Source of the DNA: Anaerolineae bacterium
GTDB lineage: Bacteria; Chloroflexota; Anaerolineae; Aggregatilineales; Phototrophicaceae
Direction: 5' to 3'
Length of the DNA stretch: 64,000 nucleotides
Assembly: GCA_022841825.1 (NCBI GenBank)
Contig: JALHQT010000003.1
Span: 124,001-188,000 of the forward strand
A model generated the notes under the pieces. The model did no database searches. It saw nothing but the letters and a program-made list of their open reading frames with translations, and was not told the DNA's origin. The translations under genes were made by a program, and so were the position numbers. This document shows positions 2,066 through 60,827 of the stretch, piece by piece. Position 1 is the stretch's first letter; each line of letters begins with the position of its first letter.

Positions 2066-2093
2066 GTGCGTGGTGCGAAGTGCGCAGTGCGAA
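2066..2093. repeat. Heptamer array (GTGCGNR x4), single arm
   Basis: Four consecutive heptamers, GTGCGTG, GTGCGAA, GTGCGCA and GTGCGAA, lie 23 nt upstream of the DsbA-like start. The same unit recurs at seven other loci in the window, usually with an inverted partner. No inverted partner is obvious here. Confidence 0.85.
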
Positions 2094-14561: not shown

Positions 14562-15230
14562 TTACGGAGGCTCGGGCGTGTTGGTTGGTGTATCGGTCAC
14601 AGTCGGTGTTGGCGGGATAGGTGTATTGGTTGGTGTATCGGTCACAGTTGGTGTTGGCGGGATAGGTGTATTGGTTGGTGTATCGGTCACAGTTGGTGTT
14701 GGCGGGATAGGTGTATTGGTTGGTGTATCGGTCGCCGTTGCAGTCGGCGGCAATGGGGTGTTGGTCGGTGTGTTGGTCGGTGTTGGCGTCACGCAGCGCG
14801 GCGAGTTCTTGCTGGCAGTGGCGGTCAACTGTCTGCGGGAAGTCACGCGCCAGGTCAGGCTCGTCACCTGGCTTGTACCAAGAAAATCGACTGTGAAGAC
14901 GGCTGTCTGTCGTCCCGCCAGGAAAGTCGTCACCTGTCCTCGTGCCTGGGGTGCCGGGCTGAAGCGGTTGCTCGTCCCAACAGGGATGACGGTGGCTGCG
15001 CCGGAATTGGCATAGCCGAAGACGGCGCGGAAATTACCCCCACCCAGGTCAACGACACATTCCAGGATCGGTGTGATGACAGGCAGCGTATAGGCGGCGG
15101 CGGGGTCCTGAATGAGCGAGGTTTCTGCCGCTGCACTGCGTTGAGTGCTGGCGAGGCTCACGCCGATGTTGAGCAGCCCAACCCCCAACAGGAAGGTGAT
15201 GAGAACGGTTGTAATCGTTCGCAGGTTCAC
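14562..15230 (-). CDS. Secreted/anchored protein with a Thr-Pro repeat stalk
   Basis: A 222-residue protein. The GTG start at 15230 follows GGAG at about 9 nt. A hydrophobic N-terminal segment (TTVLITFLLGVGLLNIGVSLA) is a signal peptide or anchor. Residues 35-145 form a beta-rich domain with cysteines at about 57 and 145, suggestive of a disulfide. The last 75 residues are Thr-Pro repeats with a 15-residue period (TDTPTNTPIPPTPTV). Such stalks are common cell-wall spacers and glycosylation targets. Nothing catalytic is visible. It lies upstream of the PP2C-like membrane protein in the same direction. Confidence 0.85.
   Translation of the reverse strand: MNLRTITTVLITFLLGVGLLNIGVSLASTQRSAAAETSLIQDPAAAYTLPVITPILECVVDLGGGNFRAVFGYANSGAATVIPVGTSNRFSPAPQARGQVTTFLAGRQTAVFTVDFLGTSQVTSLTWRVTSRRQLTATASKNSPRCVTPTPTNTPTNTPLPPTATATDTPTNTPIPPTPTVTDTPTNTPIPPTPTVTDTPTNTPIPPTPTVTDTPTNTPEPP
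14581..14760. repeat. 45-bp tandem repeat encoding the Thr-Pro stalk
   Basis: Four consecutive 45-bp units start at 14581, 14626, 14671 and 14716. The first three are nearly identical and the fourth is more diverged. Each encodes 15 residues of the protein at 14562-15230. Copy number is likely to vary between strains. Confidence 0.92.
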
Positions 15231-26340: not shown

Positions 26341-26381
26341 GATGGAAGCTCCTCTTCTATGAAAAAGGTGATGAGGGAAAA

Positions 26382-26502
26382 AGGTGATGAGGTGATGAGG
26401 CAAAAGGTGATCAGGATTGTGCGTGGTGCGAGGTGCGTAGTGCGAACGAACAGCGTTCGAGATGCGACCCTCATCACTTCATGCCTCATCACCTCATCAC
26501 CT
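26382..26502. repeat. Inverted element with GGTGATGA arms enclosing a heptamer array
   Basis: Perfect 21-bp inverted arms (26382-26402 and 26482-26502) are made of GGTGATGA-type octamers. Inside lie four GTGCGNR heptamers (26419-26446) followed by a small hairpin CGAAC-AGC-GTTCG. One word family is therefore nested in another. It occupies the divergent aldo-keto reductase/fur intergenic region. Confidence 0.85.
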
Positions 26503-28972: not shown

Positions 28973-30721
28973 TCAGTACTGGTCGAACAACCCTGCCGGG
29001 CGCGGCGGCGCGGGCGCGAAGTCGTAGTACACGCGGTTGATCCCGACCTGCGCCACCTCGTAAGTGATCCCCGCCTCCGCAAACCGCGCCTCCAACATCG
29101 CGTCCAGCTCCGGGATGTTCGCCGTGATGTAGGCGATGTCCTCGCTGGCGTCGGTCGCCTGGCGGTAGGGCGCGTAACGCTCGAAGGCGGGTGTGTAGGC
29201 GAGGTCGGACTTGTCCGGCAGCGCCGCGCTCATCTGGATGCGCTCGCCGCTCAAAAAGGCGATCCGAAAGCTGATCCAGTAGGTGGTATAGCCATGCCGC
29301 AGACCGCGCGCATCCATCCAGGCGATCAGCGCCGCGTCATCGTCGTTCGGCAGATGAGTCTGTGCGACGAACTGCGTCGTAAAGCCGACCACCGACCGCG
29401 CCGCCGCGACTTGCCCCGCCGCGTGATAGCCGAGTACAAGCGCGACGATCAGCCACGCCGCCGCGCGCGGCAGTCGCACGACCCACGCCGCCAGCGCGAC
29501 CGCCAGCGGGAACGCCAGCGGCACGAAGTAGCGCCCGCTTGGATCGCTGGAAAAGCGCGTCAGCAGGAACAGGGCGCACAGTACGCCGATCATGCCGAAG
29601 ATCATGATAGGGACGAGGCATGTCGGGTCCGTGTGCGAGGCGCGTGGTGCGGGGTGCGAATGTGCAATTTCCGACGCATTTTCGTGCGGTGGCACTCTGG
29701 CATCTGGTTCTTTCTCACCACGCACTGCGCACCACGCACTCCTCCCCGCCTGATAGAGTGCTGCTCCATACAGCGCCACCACGACCACGCCAATCGGCAG
29801 CGCGAAGAAATCGCCCGCCCAGGGAGCGCGCAGCCCGACCGCCGATGGCAGCCCCAGCAGGAACAAGCCGATCACGCGCTGATCCCAGGGGATGGAGGGG
29901 ATGACCGCGCCGACGGTCTCGCGCCCGCCCAGCACCTCCGGCAGGAAGAAGCGAATCGGCGCGAGGTCATTCGCCAGCGCATACAGCCACCAGGGGGCGC
30001 TGCCGATCAGGAAGAAGAGGAGTGCGATGAGGACGTGCGTGGTGACCGGGTGCGTGGTGCGAAGTGCGTGGTGCGAACGGGCATCTGTCGTAGGGGCGGA
30101 GCCATGTCTCCGCCCGAACGCCCCGCGCAGCACGTACCACGCACCGATTGCCATCAGCGGCACGATGTAGACGACGATCAGCGCGTTCGTCCACCAGCCC
30201 ACGCCCGCGATCAACCCGATCAGCGCCCAGCGCCATGCGCCGCGCGCGCCGCCCATCGCCAGGGCGATCAGCAGATGTCCGAACAGCAGCGTCTCATTGT
30301 AGCCGCCGAGCGTCGCCGCCGTATACAGCGTGAGCAGCGGCGTGCCGACCGCGAACAGCAGCCCGACGATCAGCGCGGCGTCGATGCGCCGCAGCAGGGC
30401 GTGCGCGGCGGCGTAGGCGCTGGCGACGACACCCAGGTAAAGCAGCGCCTGCACGATGCGGATCGTCATGACCGATTCGCCAAGCAGGCGGAAACCCGCC
30501 GCCACCAGCCAGGCATCCAGGCTGCCCATGTATGCCTGCCCGAAGAAGAAGGTCGGCGGGTTACCCGCCAGGATGTGGCGCGCCATCAAGCCGACGATTG
30601 CCTCGTCGGAGTGAAACGACAGGCTGCCGCTGGCGAGCAGCAGCACGCGCCCGACCGCCGCCACGAGGACGCCGGCGAGCAGGCACAGCCAATAAGTACG
30701 TGTAAGGGGTGTCTGCGGCAT
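28973..30721 (-). CDS. GT-C/GT39-like membrane glycosyltransferase with repeat-derived insertions
   Basis: A 582-residue protein with about ten membrane helices and a soluble C-terminal domain. The first external loop has SFHSDEAIVGLMARHIL, the acidic catalytic-type loop of GT39/ArnT-like enzymes that use lipid-linked sugars. FFFGQAYMGSLDAWL and the later WWTNALIVVYIVPLM also fit. GGAG precedes the ATG at 30721. Two loops are built from dispersed repeats translated in frame: about residues 202-224 (SAPTTDARSHHALRTTH) and 328-363 (SAWCAVRGEKE...). The frame is intact, so the insertions are tolerated. Substrate unknown. Confidence 0.82.
   Translation of the reverse strand: MPQTPLTRTYWLCLLAGVLVAAVGRVLLLASGSLSFHSDEAIVGLMARHILAGNPPTFFFGQAYMGSLDAWLVAAGFRLLGESVMTIRIVQALLYLGVVASAYAAAHALLRRIDAALIVGLLFAVGTPLLTLYTAATLGGYNETLLFGHLLIALAMGGARGAWRWALIGLIAGVGWWTNALIVVYIVPLMAIGAWYVLRGAFGRRHGSAPTTDARSHHALRTTHPVTTHVLIALLFFLIGSAPWWLYALANDLAPIRFFLPEVLGGRETVGAVIPSIPWDQRVIGLFLLGLPSAVGLRAPWAGDFFALPIGVVVVALYGAALYQAGRSAWCAVRGEKEPDARVPPHENASEIAHSHPAPRASHTDPTCLVPIMIFGMIGVLCALFLLTRFSSDPSGRYFVPLAFPLAVALAAWVVRLPRAAAWLIVALVLGYHAAGQVAAARSVVGFTTQFVAQTHLPNDDDAALIAWMDARGLRHGYTTYWISFRIAFLSGERIQMSAALPDKSDLAYTPAFERYAPYRQATDASEDIAYITANIPELDAMLEARFAEAGITYEVAQVGINRVYYDFAPAPPRPAGLFDQY
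29633..29739. repeat. Heptamer inverted element inside a coding region
   Basis: The left arm of four GTGCGNR-type heptamers (29633-29660) and the inverted right arm (29712-29739: TTCTCAC, CACGCAC, TGCGCAC, CACGCAC) span 107 bp inside the GT-C gene. They are translated without a stop. Confidence 0.9.
30050..30115. repeat. Heptamer array plus palindrome inside a coding region
   Basis: Four heptamers, GTGCGTG, GTGCGAA, GTGCGTG and GTGCGAA (30050-30077), are followed by a GGGGCGGAG/CTCCGCCC palindrome (30094-30115). Both are inside the GT-C gene and contribute a hydrophilic loop. Confidence 0.9.
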
Positions 30722-30903
30722 CCAATCGCTCCAGGTGATGGTTTGATTGTATGAGAAAGCCGCGTGCAGCGGGGTAAAGACCGATGCGGAAGCGTCTTGA
30801 CCCGTGTACAAGAACGCCTTACAGTTGTCATTAAGCCGAGTACAAGGGCATCCCCCACCCGGCACATTTGATTCGTTTCATCTACCCCGAAACGAGGTTC
30901 ACT

Positions 30904-32766
30904 GTGTCGCTCTTTCTGTCTTATTCACGCCGCGAAGTCACCTTTGCTGACAGCCTATCCGATCATCTTGAGACGCTTGGCTACGAAGTATGGGTTGACT
31001 TCAAATCCATCCCCCTGGGGGATGACTGGCAATCTGCTATCGATGCTGGCATCGACAAAGCGGATACTTTCCTCCTGGTTGTCTCGTCCACCGCCCTCGA
31101 ATCGCCGTTTGTGCGCCACGAATGGGAAAGCGCACTTTCGCAGCAAAAACGGCTCCTACTGCTGATCTTCGAGGCAGCGCCTCTACCAGCGGAGCTGGCA
31201 GATCGTGAATGGATCGATTTTCGCAAGTCCTTTGATGCGGCGCTCGCTGACCTTCGGCAGCGGCTTGCAGACACAGAGGCAATCGCGCCAACCACGCTGC
31301 CGTCGCCCAGGCGAATCATTCCGCCCACGCCCCGCGCATTCATCACGCTGTCGCGCATGAAGTTCGCCATTCTTCTTTCCTGTCTGCCTCTGTTGAATTT
31401 CAACGCTGCTCGGGAGACAGCGCAAGAGTCCCTGCTGCTGCTGATAAGCGTGGTTCCGCTCGTGGTATTGGTTCTGGCTGTGACGATCTTCTCCGGATGG
31501 ATCGTGCCATTGCCCGAATGGCATCTCGGCGAAAGCAGCGTGTTTCGACGCGCGCACAATTTCGGGACGACCAGTTTATGGTTATGGATCTGGCTGGTCG
31601 GTGGCGCAGCATTGATCACCCCCTTCTTCTCGCCATTCCTGGATCAGCGCCCTCTGTTGACGCTCTACTATCAGTTATTGACTGTTTTTTATATCGTTGT
31701 CGTTTTGGCGCAGCAGATCCTCCTGCGTCGCCCTGGCATGTATCGCTGGGGTACTGAGAAAGGCGTTCATGTGCGCTCGTTGGAGCGCAGCGGCATGACG
31801 CCTGCGCGTTTTGTCATGCTGCTCATCATCATCTTCCTGATCCTGGCAATCATCCTGGCGCTATCGAGAGGCAGTGGTGCTTTTCTCCTGCTCTACCTGG
31901 TTGCTGCTTACCTGGGATGGCGCGCCTACCGCCGGCACTATGAGCAGGGAAACACACTGAACGTCACCTGGTCTCCCAACACCTTCCACATCGAATACGC
32001 CCACCCGGATAATTTTATCGCCCAGCAGATGGCGGTTCGGCTGACCGCCGCAGGGCACACCTGGGTGCGGAACCCCGACGAGGCGCGAACGCTGATCGTC
32101 CTGATGTCGCAGTACAACACCCGATCCGAGAAGACTCCGACCGCCCTTGAAAAGGGTCACCGCATCATCCCGGCGCTTGTCCAGCCCGTTGAGTCGCAAG
32201 TGATGGAGACGGAGCCTGCGTATCGCTTTCAGGCGCTGGATTTGCGTTCGGATATTCGTGCGCGTATCGAGTTGTTCGCACGCAACTTCCATGAACTGAA
32301 GCGCGCTCCGGCTGACCTGGCAATCATGCCGTTCAAACTGAACGTTCGCAAACCGAACATCGTCCGAAACGCTGAAGCCGTCTTTGGGATAGGTGTGATC
32401 CTCGGGGTGCTGACCACGGTCGCGGGACCATTCCTGCTGTATAACCAGTATCGGCAAGCCACGGCACTTATGCGCGACTCGCCAGGAATGTACACGCTCG
32501 ACGAAGGTGCCATCCTGCTGAGTGGCATTGGTATTGTGGTCAGCCTGATACTGGTCGCCCTCCAGTTCAACATGCGAAACATGCTCATCCGGCGCACGGG
32601 TTCGGTTGGGGAGTTTCGGACGCTCTTTGGCTGGTTCATCGGCATCATCATCATCGGGTTGGTGACGCGAATATTGACTGGTGGCGCTGGCATTTGGTTC
32701 CTGATGGCGCTCGCGGTTGGCATCTTCAGCAGCGACGAGATCCATTATTGGCTGCCGAACGAGTAA
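30904..32766 (+). CDS. TIR-domain multi-pass membrane protein with a second degenerate TIR-like domain
   Basis: A 620-residue protein. Residues 1-125 are a TIR domain: MSLFLSYSRREVTFADSLSD, GYEVWVDFKSIPLGDDW, and FLLVVSSTALESPFVRHEWE, with Glu73 at the NADase catalytic position. Five helices follow (about 175-342). Residues 360-460 then show a second, degenerate TIR-like pattern (AQQMAVRLTAAGHTWVRNPD, ARTLIVLMSQYNT, ALEKGHRIIPALVQPVE). Four more helices end the protein. The GTG at 30904 is chosen because GAGG is 6 nt upstream and family members start at this residue. A signalling or defence role is inferred from TIR biology. G+C is lower than in neighbours. Confidence 0.82.
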   Translation: MSLFLSYSRREVTFADSLSDHLETLGYEVWVDFKSIPLGDDWQSAIDAGIDKADTFLLVVSSTALESPFVRHEWESALSQQKRLLLLIFEAAPLPAELADREWIDFRKSFDAALADLRQRLADTEAIAPTTLPSPRRIIPPTPRAFITLSRMKFAILLSCLPLLNFNAARETAQESLLLLISVVPLVVLVLAVTIFSGWIVPLPEWHLGESSVFRRAHNFGTTSLWLWIWLVGGAALITPFFSPFLDQRPLLTLYYQLLTVFYIVVVLAQQILLRRPGMYRWGTEKGVHVRSLERSGMTPARFVMLLIIIFLILAIILALSRGSGAFLLLYLVAAYLGWRAYRRHYEQGNTLNVTWSPNTFHIEYAHPDNFIAQQMAVRLTAAGHTWVRNPDEARTLIVLMSQYNTRSEKTPTALEKGHRIIPALVQPVESQVMETEPAYRFQALDLRSDIRARIELFARNFHELKRAPADLAIMPFKLNVRKPNIVRNAEAVFGIGVILGVLTTVAGPFLLYNQYRQATALMRDSPGMYTLDEGAILLSGIGIVVSLILVALQFNMRNMLIRRTGSVGEFRTLFGWFIGIIIIGLVTRILTGGAGIWFLMALAVGIFSSDEIHYWLPNE

Positions 32767-32788
32767 CCATATGATGCAGTCGGGAATA

Positions 32789-32815
32789 CCCCAGACCACC
32801 CACGGTGTTCTGGGG
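32789..32815. terminator. Hairpin between convergent genes
   Basis: CCCCAGA (32789-32795) and TCTGGGG (32809-32815) form a 7-bp stem downstream of the TIR gene, facing a gene from the other strand that ends at 32835. A weak T-rich tail follows (CTATTCGTGTT). Confidence 0.6.
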
Positions 32816-32834
32816 CTATTCGTGTTCCTCAGCG

Positions 32835-33284
32835 CTACTCCTCGTCCGGCGTGGTCGGCAGGATCAGCCGCTCGGCGTCGTAGAAACCCTCTTCGTCCAC
32901 CTGAAGGACGCCGGGGTGATGGTCAAACAGCCAGTCCCACAGTTGTTCGAGGATGTCCTGGTTGATGTGACCCGCTTCCAGCACGCGCAGCGCCACGAGC
33001 GATTGCACGTTGTCCAGAATGCTCTGGATGAGCGGCTTGAGCGGGTCTTCAATCGGCGCGATCAGATCACGCAGTTCGTCAATATCCTCGGCGAAGACCT
33101 CATCGCCCGTGCGATTAAAGGCGATCTCGCCGAAGACCGTTTCGCCGTAGTAAAGGTCGCCGCTTTCGTGGTCGCTCGGATCGAACTGTACACGAAACTG
33201 CGGGTCAATGTCGTGGAGCGCCGCCTCGATCTGTTCGAGGTTTGCGGGGGCGCGAGTATAGAGATAGCGCATGAAATAGCTCAT
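32835..33284 (-). CDS. Acidic hypothetical protein
   Basis: A 149-residue, strongly acidic soluble protein (MSYFMRYLYTRAPANLEQIE at the start, GFYDAERLILPTTPDEE at the end). No signal peptide, membrane helix or catalytic motif. Alternating acidic helices (EDIDELRDLIAPIEDPLKPLIQS, ILEQLWDWLFDHHPG) suggest an all-helical or mixed fold, perhaps a regulatory or immunity-type protein. AGGA lies about 9 nt before the ATG. It is divergent from the GT-C gene at 33352 and convergent with the TIR gene. I recognise no family. Confidence 0.75.
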   Translation of the reverse strand: MSYFMRYLYTRAPANLEQIEAALHDIDPQFRVQFDPSDHESGDLYYGETVFGEIAFNRTGDEVFAEDIDELRDLIAPIEDPLKPLIQSILDNVQSLVALRVLEAGHINQDILEQLWDWLFDHHPGVLQVDEEGFYDAERLILPTTPDEE

Positions 33285-33338
33285 TGGCGCGGTTCCTATC
33301 GGGTGAGTGCATTTCGTTTTGTGCCATTATAACCGAGC

Positions 33339-33344
33339 TATACT
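33339..33344 (+). promoter_or_regulatory. -10 box implying a leaderless GT-C transcript
   Basis: TATACT ends 7 nt before the ATG at 33352 and no ribosome-binding site is present. The -35 region is weak (TTTTGT area around 33316). Same arrangement as fur and maf. Confidence 0.6.
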
Positions 33345-33351
33345 GAACCCC

Positions 33352-35292
33352 ATGCAATCCCATCGTCCTCACCGCTACTTCGTCACGTTGTGCGTCCTGT
33401 TCAGCTTCGGGATGAGTCTCTTCCTCGGCGATGTGGTTTTCGAGCGTCTGCCCCATCTGGAAGACGAGCTCGCCTACGTCTACCAGGCGCGCATCCTGGT
33501 GCGCGGGCAGCTCACAGTCGATTCGCCCGACCCACGCCTCGCCTTCTGGCAGCCATTCGTGATCGACCACGACGGGCAGCGCTTTGGCAAATACCCGCTC
33601 GGCTTTCCGGCGCAGCTCGCGCTGGGCGAGCTGGCGGGCGCGCCCTGGATGATCAACGCGCTGCTTGGAGCGCTGGCGGTCGCGCTGGTCTACCGCCTCG
33701 GCAGCGAGATCTTCCACCAGCGCGTCGGCATGATCGCCGCGCTGCTGCTGGCGTTTTCGCCGATGGCGCTGCTGCTCAACGCGACGCTGATGGGGCATAC
33801 GTCCGCTCTGTGCTTCACGCTGCTGTTCATGTGGGCGTATCGAAGGATAGTAGTGAGTAGGAAGACAGATGATGCGGCGGCGAATTTCGATGAGCCGTCG
33901 CGCGCGCTCGCGGACGCCATAAATGGCGTCCCTACAGGGTCGCCCGTAGGGATGCCATTTATGGCGTCCGTTTGGTGGGCGGTCGTCGCAGGCGTCGCCC
34001 TCGGGTTGGTCGTCGCCAATCGTCCGCTGGCAGCGGTCGGCATCGGGCTGCCGTACATCGCCTGGAGCATTCTGAGCCTGTGGGCGGCGTGGCGCGCGGG
34101 ATGGGGGGCGTTTTGGTGGACGCTGCGCCCGCTGGTGCTGATGGGCGCGATCGTGCTGGCGTTCGCGGCGACGATCCCACTCTTCAGCTATGCCACGACC
34201 GGCGATCCCGCGAGCAACTTGTACACGCTGGTCTGGCAGTACGACCGGGTCGGTTTTGGCGAATGCTGCGGGCGCAGCGGGCACTCGCTCGAACGCGCCT
34301 TCAACCACCTGCGCTATGACCTCTCGCTGCTGTCCGTCGATCTGCACGGCATCCAGATCGGGACATTCACGTCAGAGGTGATCGAACATCTGCTGCGCGA
34401 GGCGGACACGTACCCCAACCCCGGCTTGAGCCTCGTGCTGCCGTTGCTCGGCGTGCTGGTCGCCTTCTGGCGCGTGCGCGGGAGGTTGGCGCTCTGGGGG
34501 GTGGGCGCGGCGCTCTGGTGCGCGCTGCCGCTGCTGCTGCGCGACGCATTCCGCACGCCTGCGTCGGCGTGGGTGTGGGTGGGCGGCGCGGGGGGATGGG
34601 TATTGCTTGTGGGTGCGTGGTGCGTGGTGCGTGGTGCGAAGAAACAACGTGATAAAATCGCGTCCGTAGGGGCTCATCACGAGAATCGGTCGGCGCTGGC
34701 ACTTTCGCACCACGCACTGCGCACCACGCACCACAATTCACACACTTCGACCCTCCACGAACGTGTCGTCCTGCTCGCCGTCGCGCTGATGCCTGTCCTC
34801 GTCCACATGACCTACTGGGTGGGGTCGCAGCGTTACAGCACGCGCTACTACTACGAGGGCATCGGCGCGCTCGTGCTGTTCAGCGCGCTGGCGCTGGCAT
34901 GGCTGACGCAGCGGCTGCGCACACGCTGGACGCTGGCGCTCCTCGTGTTTGGCTGCGGGGTGACGTTCATCACCTACAGCCTGCCGCGTGTCGGCGCACT
35001 GCACGGCTTCAACAACGTTTCGCAAAGCTGGATCGACGGGGCGCGCGCGCGGGCGGGTGAGCATGACAAGCTGCTGGTGATCGTAACAGGGACGGAATTG
35101 AGCTGGCGGGCAGTGGGGTCCTTCATGGCGGTGACGAGTCCGTTTCTGGATAGCGAAATCGTCGGCGTCTATAACCGGGTGAGCGCGCCGGGTGAGATCG
35201 GGCTGCGAGAGCAGGTGATCGCGCAGTTCCCCGACCGCGCTGTTGTCGAGCTGACGGCGCGGGGCGAGGAGGCGCAGTTTGCGGGCGAGTAG
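33352..35292 (+). CDS. GT39-like membrane glycosyltransferase with repeat-derived insertions
   Basis: A 646-residue protein with about ten helices. The first loop carries LPHLEDELAYVYQARILVRGQLT, with the acidic DE pair typical of GT39/ArnT-like GT-C enzymes, then FGKYPLGFPAQLALG. The C-terminal soluble region follows the last helix at about residue 565. Two loops come from repeats: about 187-206 (ADAINGVPTGSPVGMPFMAS) from a palindrome element, and 421-460 (GAWCVVRGAKK ... ALSHHALRTTHHN) from a heptamer element. The peptides AWC[AV]VRG and SHHALRTTH also occur in the gene at 28973-30721. Likely a cell-envelope sugar transferase; acceptor unknown. Confidence 0.83.
   Translation: MQSHRPHRYFVTLCVLFSFGMSLFLGDVVFERLPHLEDELAYVYQARILVRGQLTVDSPDPRLAFWQPFVIDHDGQRFGKYPLGFPAQLALGELAGAPWMINALLGALAVALVYRLGSEIFHQRVGMIAALLLAFSPMALLLNATLMGHTSALCFTLLFMWAYRRIVVSRKTDDAAANFDEPSRALADAINGVPTGSPVGMPFMASVWWAVVAGVALGLVVANRPLAAVGIGLPYIAWSILSLWAAWRAGWGAFWWTLRPLVLMGAIVLAFAATIPLFSYATTGDPASNLYTLVWQYDRVGFGECCGRSGHSLERAFNHLRYDLSLLSVDLHGIQIGTFTSEVIEHLLREADTYPNPGLSLVLPLLGVLVAFWRVRGRLALWGVGAALWCALPLLLRDAFRTPASAWVWVGGAGGWVLLVGAWCVVRGAKKQRDKIASVGAHHENRSALALSHHALRTTHHNSHTSTLHERVVLLAVALMPVLVHMTYWVGSQRYSTRYYYEGIGALVLFSALALAWLTQRLRTRWTLALLVFGCGVTFITYSLPRVGALHGFNNVSQSWIDGARARAGEHDKLLVIVTGTELSWRAVGSFMAVTSPFLDSEIVGVYNRVSAPGEIGLREQVIAQFPDRAVVELTARGEEAQFAGE
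33912..33970. repeat. Palindrome element inside a coding region
   Basis: CATAAATGGCGTCCCTAC (33918-33935) pairs with GTAGGGATGCCATTTATG (33946-33963), 17 of 18 matching, flanked by extra GGACGCCAT/ATGGCGTCC units. It closely matches the element over the modA start (17123-17168). Here it is translated in frame. Confidence 0.9.
34613..34731. repeat. Heptamer inverted element inside a coding region
   Basis: The left arm (34613-34640) has GTGCGTG three times then GTGCGAA. The right arm (34704-34731) has TTCGCAC, CACGCAC, TGCGCAC and CACGCAC. The span is 119 bp. It adds about 40 residues to a loop of the GT-C protein without breaking the frame. Confidence 0.92.
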
Positions 35293-52474: not shown

Positions 52475-52559
52475 GTGCGTGATGCGTAGTGCGCAGTGCG
52501 AACAAACAAAACGCGCTGCTGACAGAACCAATTGTTTGTCCGCACCCCGCACCGCGCAC
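52475..52559. repeat. Heptamer inverted element upstream of maf
   Basis: Left arm GTGCGTG, ATGCGTA, GTGCGCA, GTGCGAA (52475-52502); right arm TCCGCAC, CCCGCAC, CGCGCAC (52539-52559). The inner ends extend the pairing with AACAAACAA and TTGTTTGT. The right arm lies just upstream of the maf -10 box. Confidence 0.88.
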
Positions 52560-58257: not shown

Positions 58258-59280
58258 ATGCAGAACGGCAAAAATGGCACGTTAGTCGAGGTGCGCGACC
58301 TCGCCAAAACCTTTAAGGGCAAGAACGGCAAGGATGTCGCGGCGGTCAAGGGCGTCAGCCTCGACATCCGCCAGGGCGAGATCTTCAGCCTGCTCGGTCC
58401 CAACGGCGCGGGCAAGACGACGACCATCTCGATGATCAGCGGGCTGCTCGCGCCCACGCGCGGCGATGCCCGCATCGGCGGCTACTCGATCACCCGCCAG
58501 GGGATCGACGCCAAGAAGCTGATCGGCGTCGTGCCGCAGGAGATCGCGCTCTACCCCACGCTGACCGCGCGGCAAAATCTGGAATTCTTCGGCAGGATGT
58601 ACAGCATGGGCGGCGCGGAGCTAACGAAGCGTGTCGACGAAGTGCTCGACTTCATCGACCTGACCGACCGCCAGCACGACAAGATCGAAACCTTCAGCGG
58701 CGGCATGAAGCGGCGCGTCAACATCGGCGTCGGGCTGCTGCACAAGCCGCGCCTGCTCTACATGGACGAGCCGACCGTCGGCATCGACCCGCAGAACCGC
58801 CGCCGCGTCCTCGATACGGTCAAGCGCCTGCAAAGCGAGCAGGGCATGACTGTCCTCTATACGTCGCATCTGATGGAAGAAGTCCAGGAAATCAGCGACC
58901 GCATCGCCATCATCGATCATGGGCAGATCATCGCGGGCGGCACGCTCGGCGAACTCATCCAGCAGATCGGCGAGGAAGACCGCATCTTCCTCAAGGTTGG
59001 CGCGGCAGCCATCAGCGAGGCGCAGCTTGCGCAGCTCCGGCGCAGCGTCGAAGGCGTGACGAAAGCCACGCATGACCGCCGCGAGATAAAGGGCGAAGAT
59101 GACGCGGTCGTCGACGTGGATGGCGTGATTACGGTGCTGGCGAAGCGTGGGCGGAAGGCGCTGCCGCCGCTGCTTCAAGCGGCGGAAGAAGCGGACATCA
59201 CCGTGCTGTCGGTCGAGGTGCGCGAGCCTGACCTGGAAGCCGTCTTCCTGCACCTGACGGGTCGGGCGCTGCGAGATTAG
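58258..59280 (+). CDS. ABC transporter ATP-binding protein (DrrA-like)
   Basis: A 340-residue ATPase. Walker A LGPNGAGKTTTISM, Q-loop GVVPQEIALYPTLTA, signature FSGGMKRRVNIG, Walker B LLYMDEPTVGIDP and the switch His in YTSHLMEEV. A C-terminal extension (about 240-340) is typical of the drug/lipid exporters of the DrrA/NodI group. It follows a GAGGAG and is the first gene of a three-gene exporter with two ABC-2 permeases. Its TAG stop shares its last base with a heptamer element. Substrate unknown: drugs, lipids or polysaccharides are possible. Confidence 0.95.
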   Translation: MQNGKNGTLVEVRDLAKTFKGKNGKDVAAVKGVSLDIRQGEIFSLLGPNGAGKTTTISMISGLLAPTRGDARIGGYSITRQGIDAKKLIGVVPQEIALYPTLTARQNLEFFGRMYSMGGAELTKRVDEVLDFIDLTDRQHDKIETFSGGMKRRVNIGVGLLHKPRLLYMDEPTVGIDPQNRRRVLDTVKRLQSEQGMTVLYTSHLMEEVQEISDRIAIIDHGQIIAGGTLGELIQQIGEEDRIFLKVGAAAISEAQLAQLRRSVEGVTKATHDRREIKGEDDAVVDVDGVITVLAKRGRKALPPLLQAAEEADITVLSVEVREPDLEAVFLHLTGRALRD

Positions 59281-59402
59281 TGCGAAGTGCGTGGTGCGTG
59301 GTGCGAACATGCGCTTCTTGTGGGCGGGCGATTGCATGGCATTCGGGCGCATACACGGGTGCGCCCCTACGAACATGTTTGTTCGCACCTCGCACTACGC
59401 AC
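59280..59402. repeat. Heptamer inverted element starting at a stop codon
   Basis: Left arm GTGCGAA, GTGCGTG, GTGCGTG, GTGCGAA (59280-59307), beginning on the last base of the TAG. Right arm TTCGCAC, CTCGCAC, TACGCAC (59382-59402). Between them is a GGGCGCA/TGCGCCC palindrome (59345-59366). The element separates the ATPase and the first permease gene. Confidence 0.92.
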
Positions 59403-60756: not shown

Positions 60757-60827
60757 GTGCGAAGTGCGTAGTGCGTGGTGCGAAAAAGCACATTGTTTGT
60801 TCGCACTACGCACCGCGCACCACGCAC
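60757..60827. repeat. Compact heptamer hairpin between ABC permease genes
   Basis: Left arm GTGCGAA, GTGCGTA, GTGCGTG, GTGCGAA (60757-60784). Right arm TTCGCAC, TACGCAC, CGCGCAC, CACGCAC (60800-60827). The 71-bp unit begins 4 nt after the permease stop and would form a hairpin with 28-bp arms. It is the tidiest example in the window. Confidence 0.95.

Follow-up and report, generated by a model that had tools for sequence, protein, structure and literature searches.

Heptamer hairpin elements within the open reading frames of two membrane protein genes of an Anaerolineae bacterium

Repeat DNA lies in frame within two membrane protein genes

We analyzed a 64,000-nucleotide stretch of DNA (the window) from an Anaerolineae bacterium of the phylum Chloroflexota (GenBank assembly GCA_022841825.1, contig JALHQT010000003.1, positions 124,001 to 188,000 of the forward strand), in which repeats built from the seven-nucleotide unit GTGCGNR lie within the genes for two membrane proteins, here called A and B (Table 1). 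Protein B contains a GT-C glycosyltransferase domain by its match to PMT_2 (PF13231; E 5.1e-6, 27.2 bits vs. a cut-off of 26.1), and a sequence search of the PDB returned no relative of it at E up to 1. At the cut-offs applied, protein A matched nothing in Pfam or NCBIfam, PMT_2 and other GT-C domains included, so the label "GT-C-like" is based on its hydropathy and on an early acidic motif, which we take to be the GT-C motif; in the host proteins the early loop bearing the acidic motif is untouched by insertions. Matches to A and B were present in 28 and 34 of 40 other genomes, respectively.

An earlier note, made from the letters of the window, had claimed that repeat DNA sits inside both genes without breaking the frame. 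Our own gene finder, trained on long open reading frames (ORFs) of the genome that contains the window (G000), confirmed this by calling A and B each as one gene, with in-frame coding scores of 58.6 to 88.7 on the flanks of the three heptamer elements. The peptides that the two proteins were said to share are present as well (AWCAVRG and SHHALRTTH in A; AWCVVRG and SHHALRTTH in B). Three of the four repeat segments are heptamer elements, as had been proposed, but the segment at residues 173-206 of B is an inverted dimer of repetitive extragenic palindromes (REPs) of the GTAG type, and the stretch private to B at this site exceeds the dimer in length.

Table 1. Coordinates of host genes and repeat features in the window (positions count from its first letter; z, fold score)
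Feature	Position	Strand	Remarks
Protein A	28973..30721	-	ORF and gene call; 582 aa membrane protein, GT-C-like; hosts two heptamer elements
Heptamer element A1	29633..29746		GTGCG arm, middle, inverted arm; residues 326-363 of A; private vs. homologues; RNA fold z -3.7
Heptamer element A2	30050..30144		Residues 193-224 of A; encodes SHHALRTTH; private vs. homologues; z -5.3
GTAG-type REP palindrome inside A2	30091..30115	+	REP search
Protein B	33352..35292	+	646 aa membrane protein, PMT_2 match; hosts one heptamer element and one REP dimer
Inverted dimer of GTAG-type REPs	33912..33969		Residues 187-206 of B; z -11.3
Heptamer element B	34613..34731		Arms 34613-34640 and 34704-34731; residues 421-460 of B; encodes GAWCVVRGAK ... 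SHHALRTTH; z -9.1
Single heptamer arm	2066..2093	+	Overlaps a called gene's end; REP next to it at 2122-2146
Single heptamer arm	26419..26446	+	Between inverted GGTGATGA-type arrays
Intergenic heptamer element	52475..52559		z -4.6
Heptamer element with REP in middle	59280..59402		REP at 59345-59369; abuts a called gene end; z -4.8
Short-form intergenic heptamer element	60757..60827		Without REP; z -7.9

The inserted loops are private to the window proteins

For comparison, 19 of the 28 other genomes that matched A supplied homologues, of which three fragments shorter than 500 aa were dropped and 16 were aligned; homologues of B came from 19 of 34 genomes and were all aligned. Four stretches of at least 12 residues were private to the window proteins (A: ~205-223 and ~330-361; B: ~173-206 and ~424-466), their residues being found in 0 of 16 (A) and 0 of 19 (B) aligned homologues. 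This bears out the claim that repeat DNA has become extra coding sequence at loops of membrane proteins. Over the median homologue, the loops gained 18.5 and 32 residues in A and 34 and 39 residues in B; for element B the gain of 39 residues is close to its 40 codons. At three of the four loops one homologue was longer than the window protein and carried another sequence (L043: 59 vs. 56 residues; L037: 73 vs. 69; L052: 60 vs. 58). In the remaining homologues the loops were short and had many Arg and Lys residues (LWRDKKGQRASL or LRGDVRQHG, for example). Basic loops lie on the cytoplasmic side by the positive-inside rule, and these short basic loops therefore suggest that the insertion sites of A and B face the cytoplasm. 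The elements inside the genes are probably translated as extra loops of the membrane proteins.

The element is a pair of inverted heptamer arms, dispersed mostly between genes

The sequence GTGCGTGGTGCG, with at most one mismatch, occurred 28 times in the window vs. 1.21 times expected, and none of 100 shuffles reached 28. A heptamer element consists of about four GTGCGNR units, a variable middle, and about four inverted units; in the first 400 kb of contig C3 of G000, neighboring arms within 300 bp were arranged with GTGCG first and CGCAC second in 16 of 16 cases. Surveying 1.196 Mb of G000 (a contiguous 0.74 Mb plus regions selected around hits) revealed 54 pairs, 59-161 bp long, with four units in 42 of the left and 43 of the right arms. 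The free dinucleotide of the innermost unit was AA in 45 left and 42 right arms (this unit is mostly GTGCGAA), and elsewhere it was mostly TG, AA, CA, TA, CG, or AG; the core appeared almost invariant, in part by selection, since the arm finder accepts three units only if 13 or more of their 15 core bases match. Middles measured 8-102 bp, and long ones often contained a GTAG-type REP or a REP dimer. Single strands of six heptamer elements were predicted to fold as hairpins (z -3.7 to -9.1), as was the REP dimer (z -11.3), and no Rfam match was found in the window. We also considered whether the free dinucleotide is kept different between left and right arms. At its second base, the two arms agreed in 0.306 of comparisons in G000 vs. 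0.416 expected (0.002 of 2000 shuffles as low), but this was not repeated in other phyla (0.393 vs. 0.404; 39 pairs, with the loci of one Bacteroidota genome dropped), where neighboring units were more alike than chance, and the idea was rejected.

The 54 pairs comprised 41 that were intergenic, nine that lay across a gene's start or end, and four flanked within a gene by 90 nt or more on either side. Three of these four are in the window; the fourth (C2:200881-201023) belongs to the gene of a 769-residue protein that has no Pfam match. As the coding fraction of G000 is 0.87-0.95 by region, or about 90%, intragenic copies are strongly under-represented, a pattern that purging of frame-breaking copies may have produced. 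The suggestion that the make-up of the repeat eases its insertion into genes fails on the same count. Single arms inside genes numbered 20; 15 of them were 21 nt long and were treated as chance, and the other five (28-35 nt) lay in four further genes. Three of these encode an asparagine synthase, a PMT_2 protein, and a polysaccharide flippase; the fourth, with two arms, encodes 799 residues and has no Pfam match. Copies are spread very unevenly: the first heptamer match listed on contig C1 (1460108 bases) is near 993230, and C2 and C3 have many.

Other short arrays accompany the family in this genome. Arrays of other 7-nt units made up 8 of 55 in 740 kb, and in 720 kb another test found period-6 arrays, as expected of coding DNA, to be about as common (56) as period-7 arrays (53). 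At 26361-26500 of the window, inverted GGTGATGA-type arrays enclose a GTGCG arm, so that arrays of two families are nested. The window also holds a 45-nt tandem repeat at 14578-14783 (3.6 copies, 97%) and, between host genes A and B at 30868-32766, a gene whose product has hydrophobic segments and, N-terminally, a TIR-like stretch (best E of its PADLOC TIR matches, 4e-16).

REPs were searched for as TAGGG[AG] plus a stem of at least 7, giving 137 hits in 0.74 Mb of G000, a number in which some palindromes figure twice, once per strand. Of these hits, 32 fall within called genes, including those for AnmK, PhnI, an aldehyde dehydrogenase, and GMP synthase (where the hit may be native sequence), and a RAYT-like gene (RAYT, REP-associated tyrosine transposase). 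The tag and short palindrome that define the GTAG type are present in the REP inside element A2 and in the dimer of B, and the heptamer arms are without the tag. The RAYT-like gene (C3:22381-23070) matched NF047646 (E 6.6e-18, 65 bits vs. a cut-off of 80) and Y1_Tnp (24 bits vs. 23), and was not among the five Y1_Tnp matches of a separate search. GTAG-type REPs lie in frame within its own coding sequence (L072:2381-3070).

The shared peptide words follow from the seven-nucleotide unit

Because 7 is coprime to 3, translating an array of 7-nt units yields the same 7-residue repeat in all three frames of a direction, differing only by rotation: GTGCGTG encodes VRGAWCV when read forward and HAPRTTH when read in reverse, and GTGCGAA encodes VRSAKCE and FALRTSH. 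Accordingly, the same words appear whichever phase is used (CGCAC direction: phase 1 in A, B, C2, C3, and C6, phase 0 in C7; GTGCG direction: phase 1 in A, B, and C2, phase 2 in C1). Since the unit forces these words in any frame, they say nothing about kinship or function, and the idea that the peptides common to A and B are a sign of shared loop function was rejected.

The heptamers had also been thought to be free of stops in all frames. This holds for most arms read as CGCAC, 103 of 108 being open in all three frames, but only for 70 of the 108 in the GTGCG reading. Every forward frame of repeated GTGCGTA contains a stop, and so does one frame of a single GTGCGTA unit. Intergenic elements were open in 4.02 of six frames on average vs. 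3.2 for shuffles, with 6 of 41 open in all six. Nor is this openness a special adaptation, because 50.4% of all 16384 heptamers give arrays open in six frames, and the four pairs inside genes were open in 3.5 of six frames on average, no more than the intergenic ones.

The family is absent from sampled congeners, and other repeats fill a loop of B homologues

The three-unit pattern had 220 matches (overlaps counted) in G000, one in 153 other genomes of the order, and none in 14 congeners. When the pattern was lengthened by one more free dinucleotide, 9 of 399 other genomes of the phylum sample had 1-4 matches. As the 14 congeners are without the family, A and B probably received their insertions after the lineage parted from these congeners, and the loops of both proteins are thus probably young.

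Repeat DNA in an open frame was also found in 4 of the 19 homologues of B, at a loop near residue 248 that is distinct from the loops filled in the window. The G006 homologue has inverted AGGACTG arms there (0 of 200 codon shuffles were equally periodic; exact inverted repeat of 16 nt) and, near residue 524, another AGGACTG array that has no exact inverted repeat; the G019 homologue has ACTCAGC arms around a REP (0 of 200; 14 nt). Palindromes occupy the loop in the G005 homologue (5 of 200; 12 nt) and in the G004 homologue, where no array is present (190 of 200; 14 nt). Among the 31 genomes searched for each, a set outside of which G019 lies, G006 alone had AGGACTG, and ACTCARC was confined to G008 and G012. 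Two contigs of G012 (C5 at its start, C7 at its end) terminate in long ACTCAGC arrays, indicating that assemblies break there and that array counts may be too low. The stretches read gave no support to the idea that other heptamer families are a common feature of the congeners: six congeners (380 kb) and G022 (20 kb) together had one period-7 array, such families being sparse there.

The paired architecture recurs in other phyla and in a dehydrogenase linker

The paired pattern was found in at least 79 stretches of named genomes (Thiohalocapsa, Methylomirabilota, Acidobacteria, Planctomycetota, Desulfobacterota, Anaerolineae, Hydrogenedentota, Bacteroidota, and others), and one strict pattern found no stretch in viruses. 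Sixteen genomes picked from the listed stretches had 1 to 369 three-unit matches, the reversed control pattern being common in two of them also. Applied to the listed stretches, the arm finder gave 53 distinct pairs, 17 of which lay in ORFs with at least 80 codons on each side (22 readings); 19 of the readings were scanned, and five had no Pfam family, some of these surely being wrong frames. Profile matches flanked eight of the 17 pairs on both sides, in PrmC (L226), in a fusion of ADH and GFO/IDH/MocA domains (L218, L223), and in the BREX proteins BrxC (L204, L167), PglX (L199), BrxHI (L219), and PglZ (L244). The insertion site is the same in PglX of L199 and L219, and likewise in the fusion of L218 and L223. 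The host genes of the latter two are 77.7% identical (1671/2151), and their arms coincide at 39 of 40 core positions and at 11 of 16 free ones, a core agreement that only hints at constraint because the scan pattern favors intact cores. The genes of BREX-type defense systems with GTGCGNR elements in open frames (L167, L219, L199, L204, L244) belong to Desulfobacterota, and three of these genes are on one contig (L167, L219: CAMNHX010000006.1).

The ADH-MocA fusion protein was searched for in 298 genomes of the class, and 30 loci were taken. In 11 of 13 genomes of one family (loci L218, L223, and L289-L299, in different genera) the linker between the domains consists of arrays of 7-nt (seven genomes) or 8-nt (four genomes) units, with at most one of 300 codon shuffles as periodic; in the other two genomes 19 and 211 of 300 shuffles were as periodic. 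None of the 17 genomes of other families reached this level (lowest 4, 5, and 10 of 300). Some of the arrays are close variants of one another (CAATCGT, CCATCGT) and others are not (GTGCGNR in L218 and L223; AACGTTCA). Too few arrays were present in 200 kb each of two genomes for the linker array to be compared with the commonest array of its genome. The linker is the least expected result, and it looks like rewriting at a standing site.

Insertion of a dispersed element is favored over other origins

Taken together, the repeat segments of A and B are likely copies of a dispersed hairpin-forming DNA element, which lies mostly between genes and in a few open genes. The element would spread through the genome of the species, mostly between genes, and a few copies would land inside genes without closing the frame, at sites that tolerate extra residues, such as the short basic interhelix loops of A and B. 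These copies would be translated as about 32-40 residues and persist since little harm is done. As the means of spread, a REP-associated (Y1) transposase that copies hairpin DNA seems about as likely as slippage during replication or a switch of template.

Several points weigh against this interpretation. In protein A the net gain is smaller than the span of the element (A2: 18.5 residues vs. 32 codons; A1: 32 vs. 38), so a clean insertion is not established. No empty site at high DNA identity was found for the elements. The gene finder reports open genes by design, and a frame-breaking copy would show as two genes; by the same token, the count of copies inside genes covers open genes only and excludes frame-breaking copies, and some of the nine overlapping copies may have broken genes. 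The dehydrogenase linker keeps a similar length (81-105 nt in the array-bearing family) while its arrays differ, which fits rewriting better than insertion. Finally, no enzyme was tied to the heptamer element, and the RAYT-like gene scores below its family cut-off.

Some of these points would be expected if the arrays instead grew in place, with slippage expanding a chance heptamer and template switching at a hairpin inverting the copy, so that a linker is rewritten and not lengthened. We regard this as unlikely for A and B, even though it accommodates the differing arrays in a linker of similar length, the shortfall of net gain in A, and the arrays of other 7-nt units in G000, and has a precedent in a polymerase-slippage proposal for heptanucleotides that is cited in PMC4679880. 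The copies in G000 share a core, an inner AA, and four-unit arms that are absent from congeners, as a dispersed family would, and at three of the four loops the excess over the median homologue is 32-39 residues. It is more improbable still that A and B are decaying genes that gather repeats and whose frames are open by chance. Two insertions in each gene, in a genome where intragenic copies are rare, would fit decay; the frames, however, are full-length, with gene-like coding scores flanking each heptamer element, homologues are widespread, and copies elsewhere lie in conserved enzymes.

We give very little credence to the proposal that the loop peptides were selected at the protein level, for instance as Cys- or His-rich binding loops, and recur through reuse. 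The same words do occur in several proteins, and one insertion is common to the two genomes with related fusion genes, but the unit yields these words in any frame, most copies are intergenic, the hosts are unrelated, and the aligned homologues lack these residues, some having other repeats in their loops. Removal of the segments from RNA, or their bypass in translation, is hardly credible, since despite the strong predicted hairpins the window has no Rfam match and the frame is open without removal.

A broader reading, which we hold tentatively and which falls just short of being probable, is that inverted-arm hairpins of about four 7-nt, sometimes 8-nt, units form one class across phyla, whose unit sequence turns over between species while the architecture stays, and that some protein loops and linkers are standing landing pads, repeatedly refilled in frame by the family that a given species has. 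We arrived at it because GTGCGNR occurs in many phyla, AGGACTG and ACTCARC are confined to few genomes, two B homologues carry AGGACTG or ACTCAGC arrays, and the linker holds arrays in 11 of 13 genomes. If true, a protein linker would be rewritten from time to time by selfish DNA.

For the dispersed element of G000 itself, the family's absence from the sampled congeners makes this a case of repeat DNA turned into protein whose age can be bounded, and elsewhere paired arrays have stayed open between related genomes. As the unit length is not divisible by 3, the frame is irrelevant to the peptide, which predicts that words such as VRSAKCEVRS and LRTSHFALRTS will be met in unrelated bacterial proteins; recurring heptapeptide words of this sort can mislead annotation and homology searches.

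Comparison with known systems

In-frame palindromic or heptamer repeats are of a kind already known from Rickettsia palindromic elements (RPEs), intragenic REPs, and Xanthomonas heptamers. A prior description of the GTGCGNR family was not found in the open-licence literature, searched by heptamer strings and derived peptide words. Cyanobacterial heptanucleotides go by the name STRR. Those of Calothrix are tandem and multicopy (PMC4692102).

RPEs are palindromic, about 105-146 bp long, and sit in frame in conserved protein genes (PMC2229807, PMC3733652). The likeness to them that had been proposed stands as far as behavior goes: GTGCGNR elements form predicted stem-loops (z -3.7 to -9.1), are tolerated in frame in unrelated protein genes, and at 59-161 bp overlap the RPEs in length with a broader range. 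Membership among the RPEs does not follow from this comparison of descriptions: G000 and Rickettsia belong to different phyla, and the passages on RPEs consulted in these papers say nothing of heptamer arms. With the GTAG-tagged REPs and their RAYTs (PMC3733652) the genome shares REPs of that type, also inside genes, of which the B dimer is one, together with a RAYT-like gene; the heptamer element, in contrast, is a separate structure that often encloses a REP. In Borg elements, too, repeat DNA makes new protein regions, which are disordered (PMC9879509), but those repeats are direct, unlike the paired hairpin arms described here.

The closest case found of heptamers considered as coding sequence is TAACTGA of Beggiatoaceae, which is patchy across phyla, has some sets inside ORFs, and has had its translation into repeating peptides discussed (PMC4679880). 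It differs from GTGCGNR in that its repeats are direct, with one inverted case, and that it has forward stops in all frames, interior sets being reverse-oriented (PMC4679880).

In architecture, the nearest system is the Xanthomonas heptamers GGGAATC and GGGANTN, which have mostly four units, form 70 and 75 convergent inverted pairs in two genomes, and are 89% and 93% intergenic with a few in genes (PMC4692102); the terms "amino acid" and "in-frame" are absent from the main text of that paper. The GTGCGNR family likewise has a degenerate 7-nt unit, about four units per array, convergent pairs, and a mostly intergenic location. The unit itself is different, GTGCGNR and not GGGANTN, and whereas the Xanthomonas study points to G-quadruplexes (PMC4692102), most GTGCGNR units are without G-tracts. 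Since most GTGCGNR arrays are unable to form G-quadruplexes, the common architecture needs another cause. The architecture of paired heptamer arms is thus separated from the G-quadruplex explanation, and the question "why seven" becomes testable.

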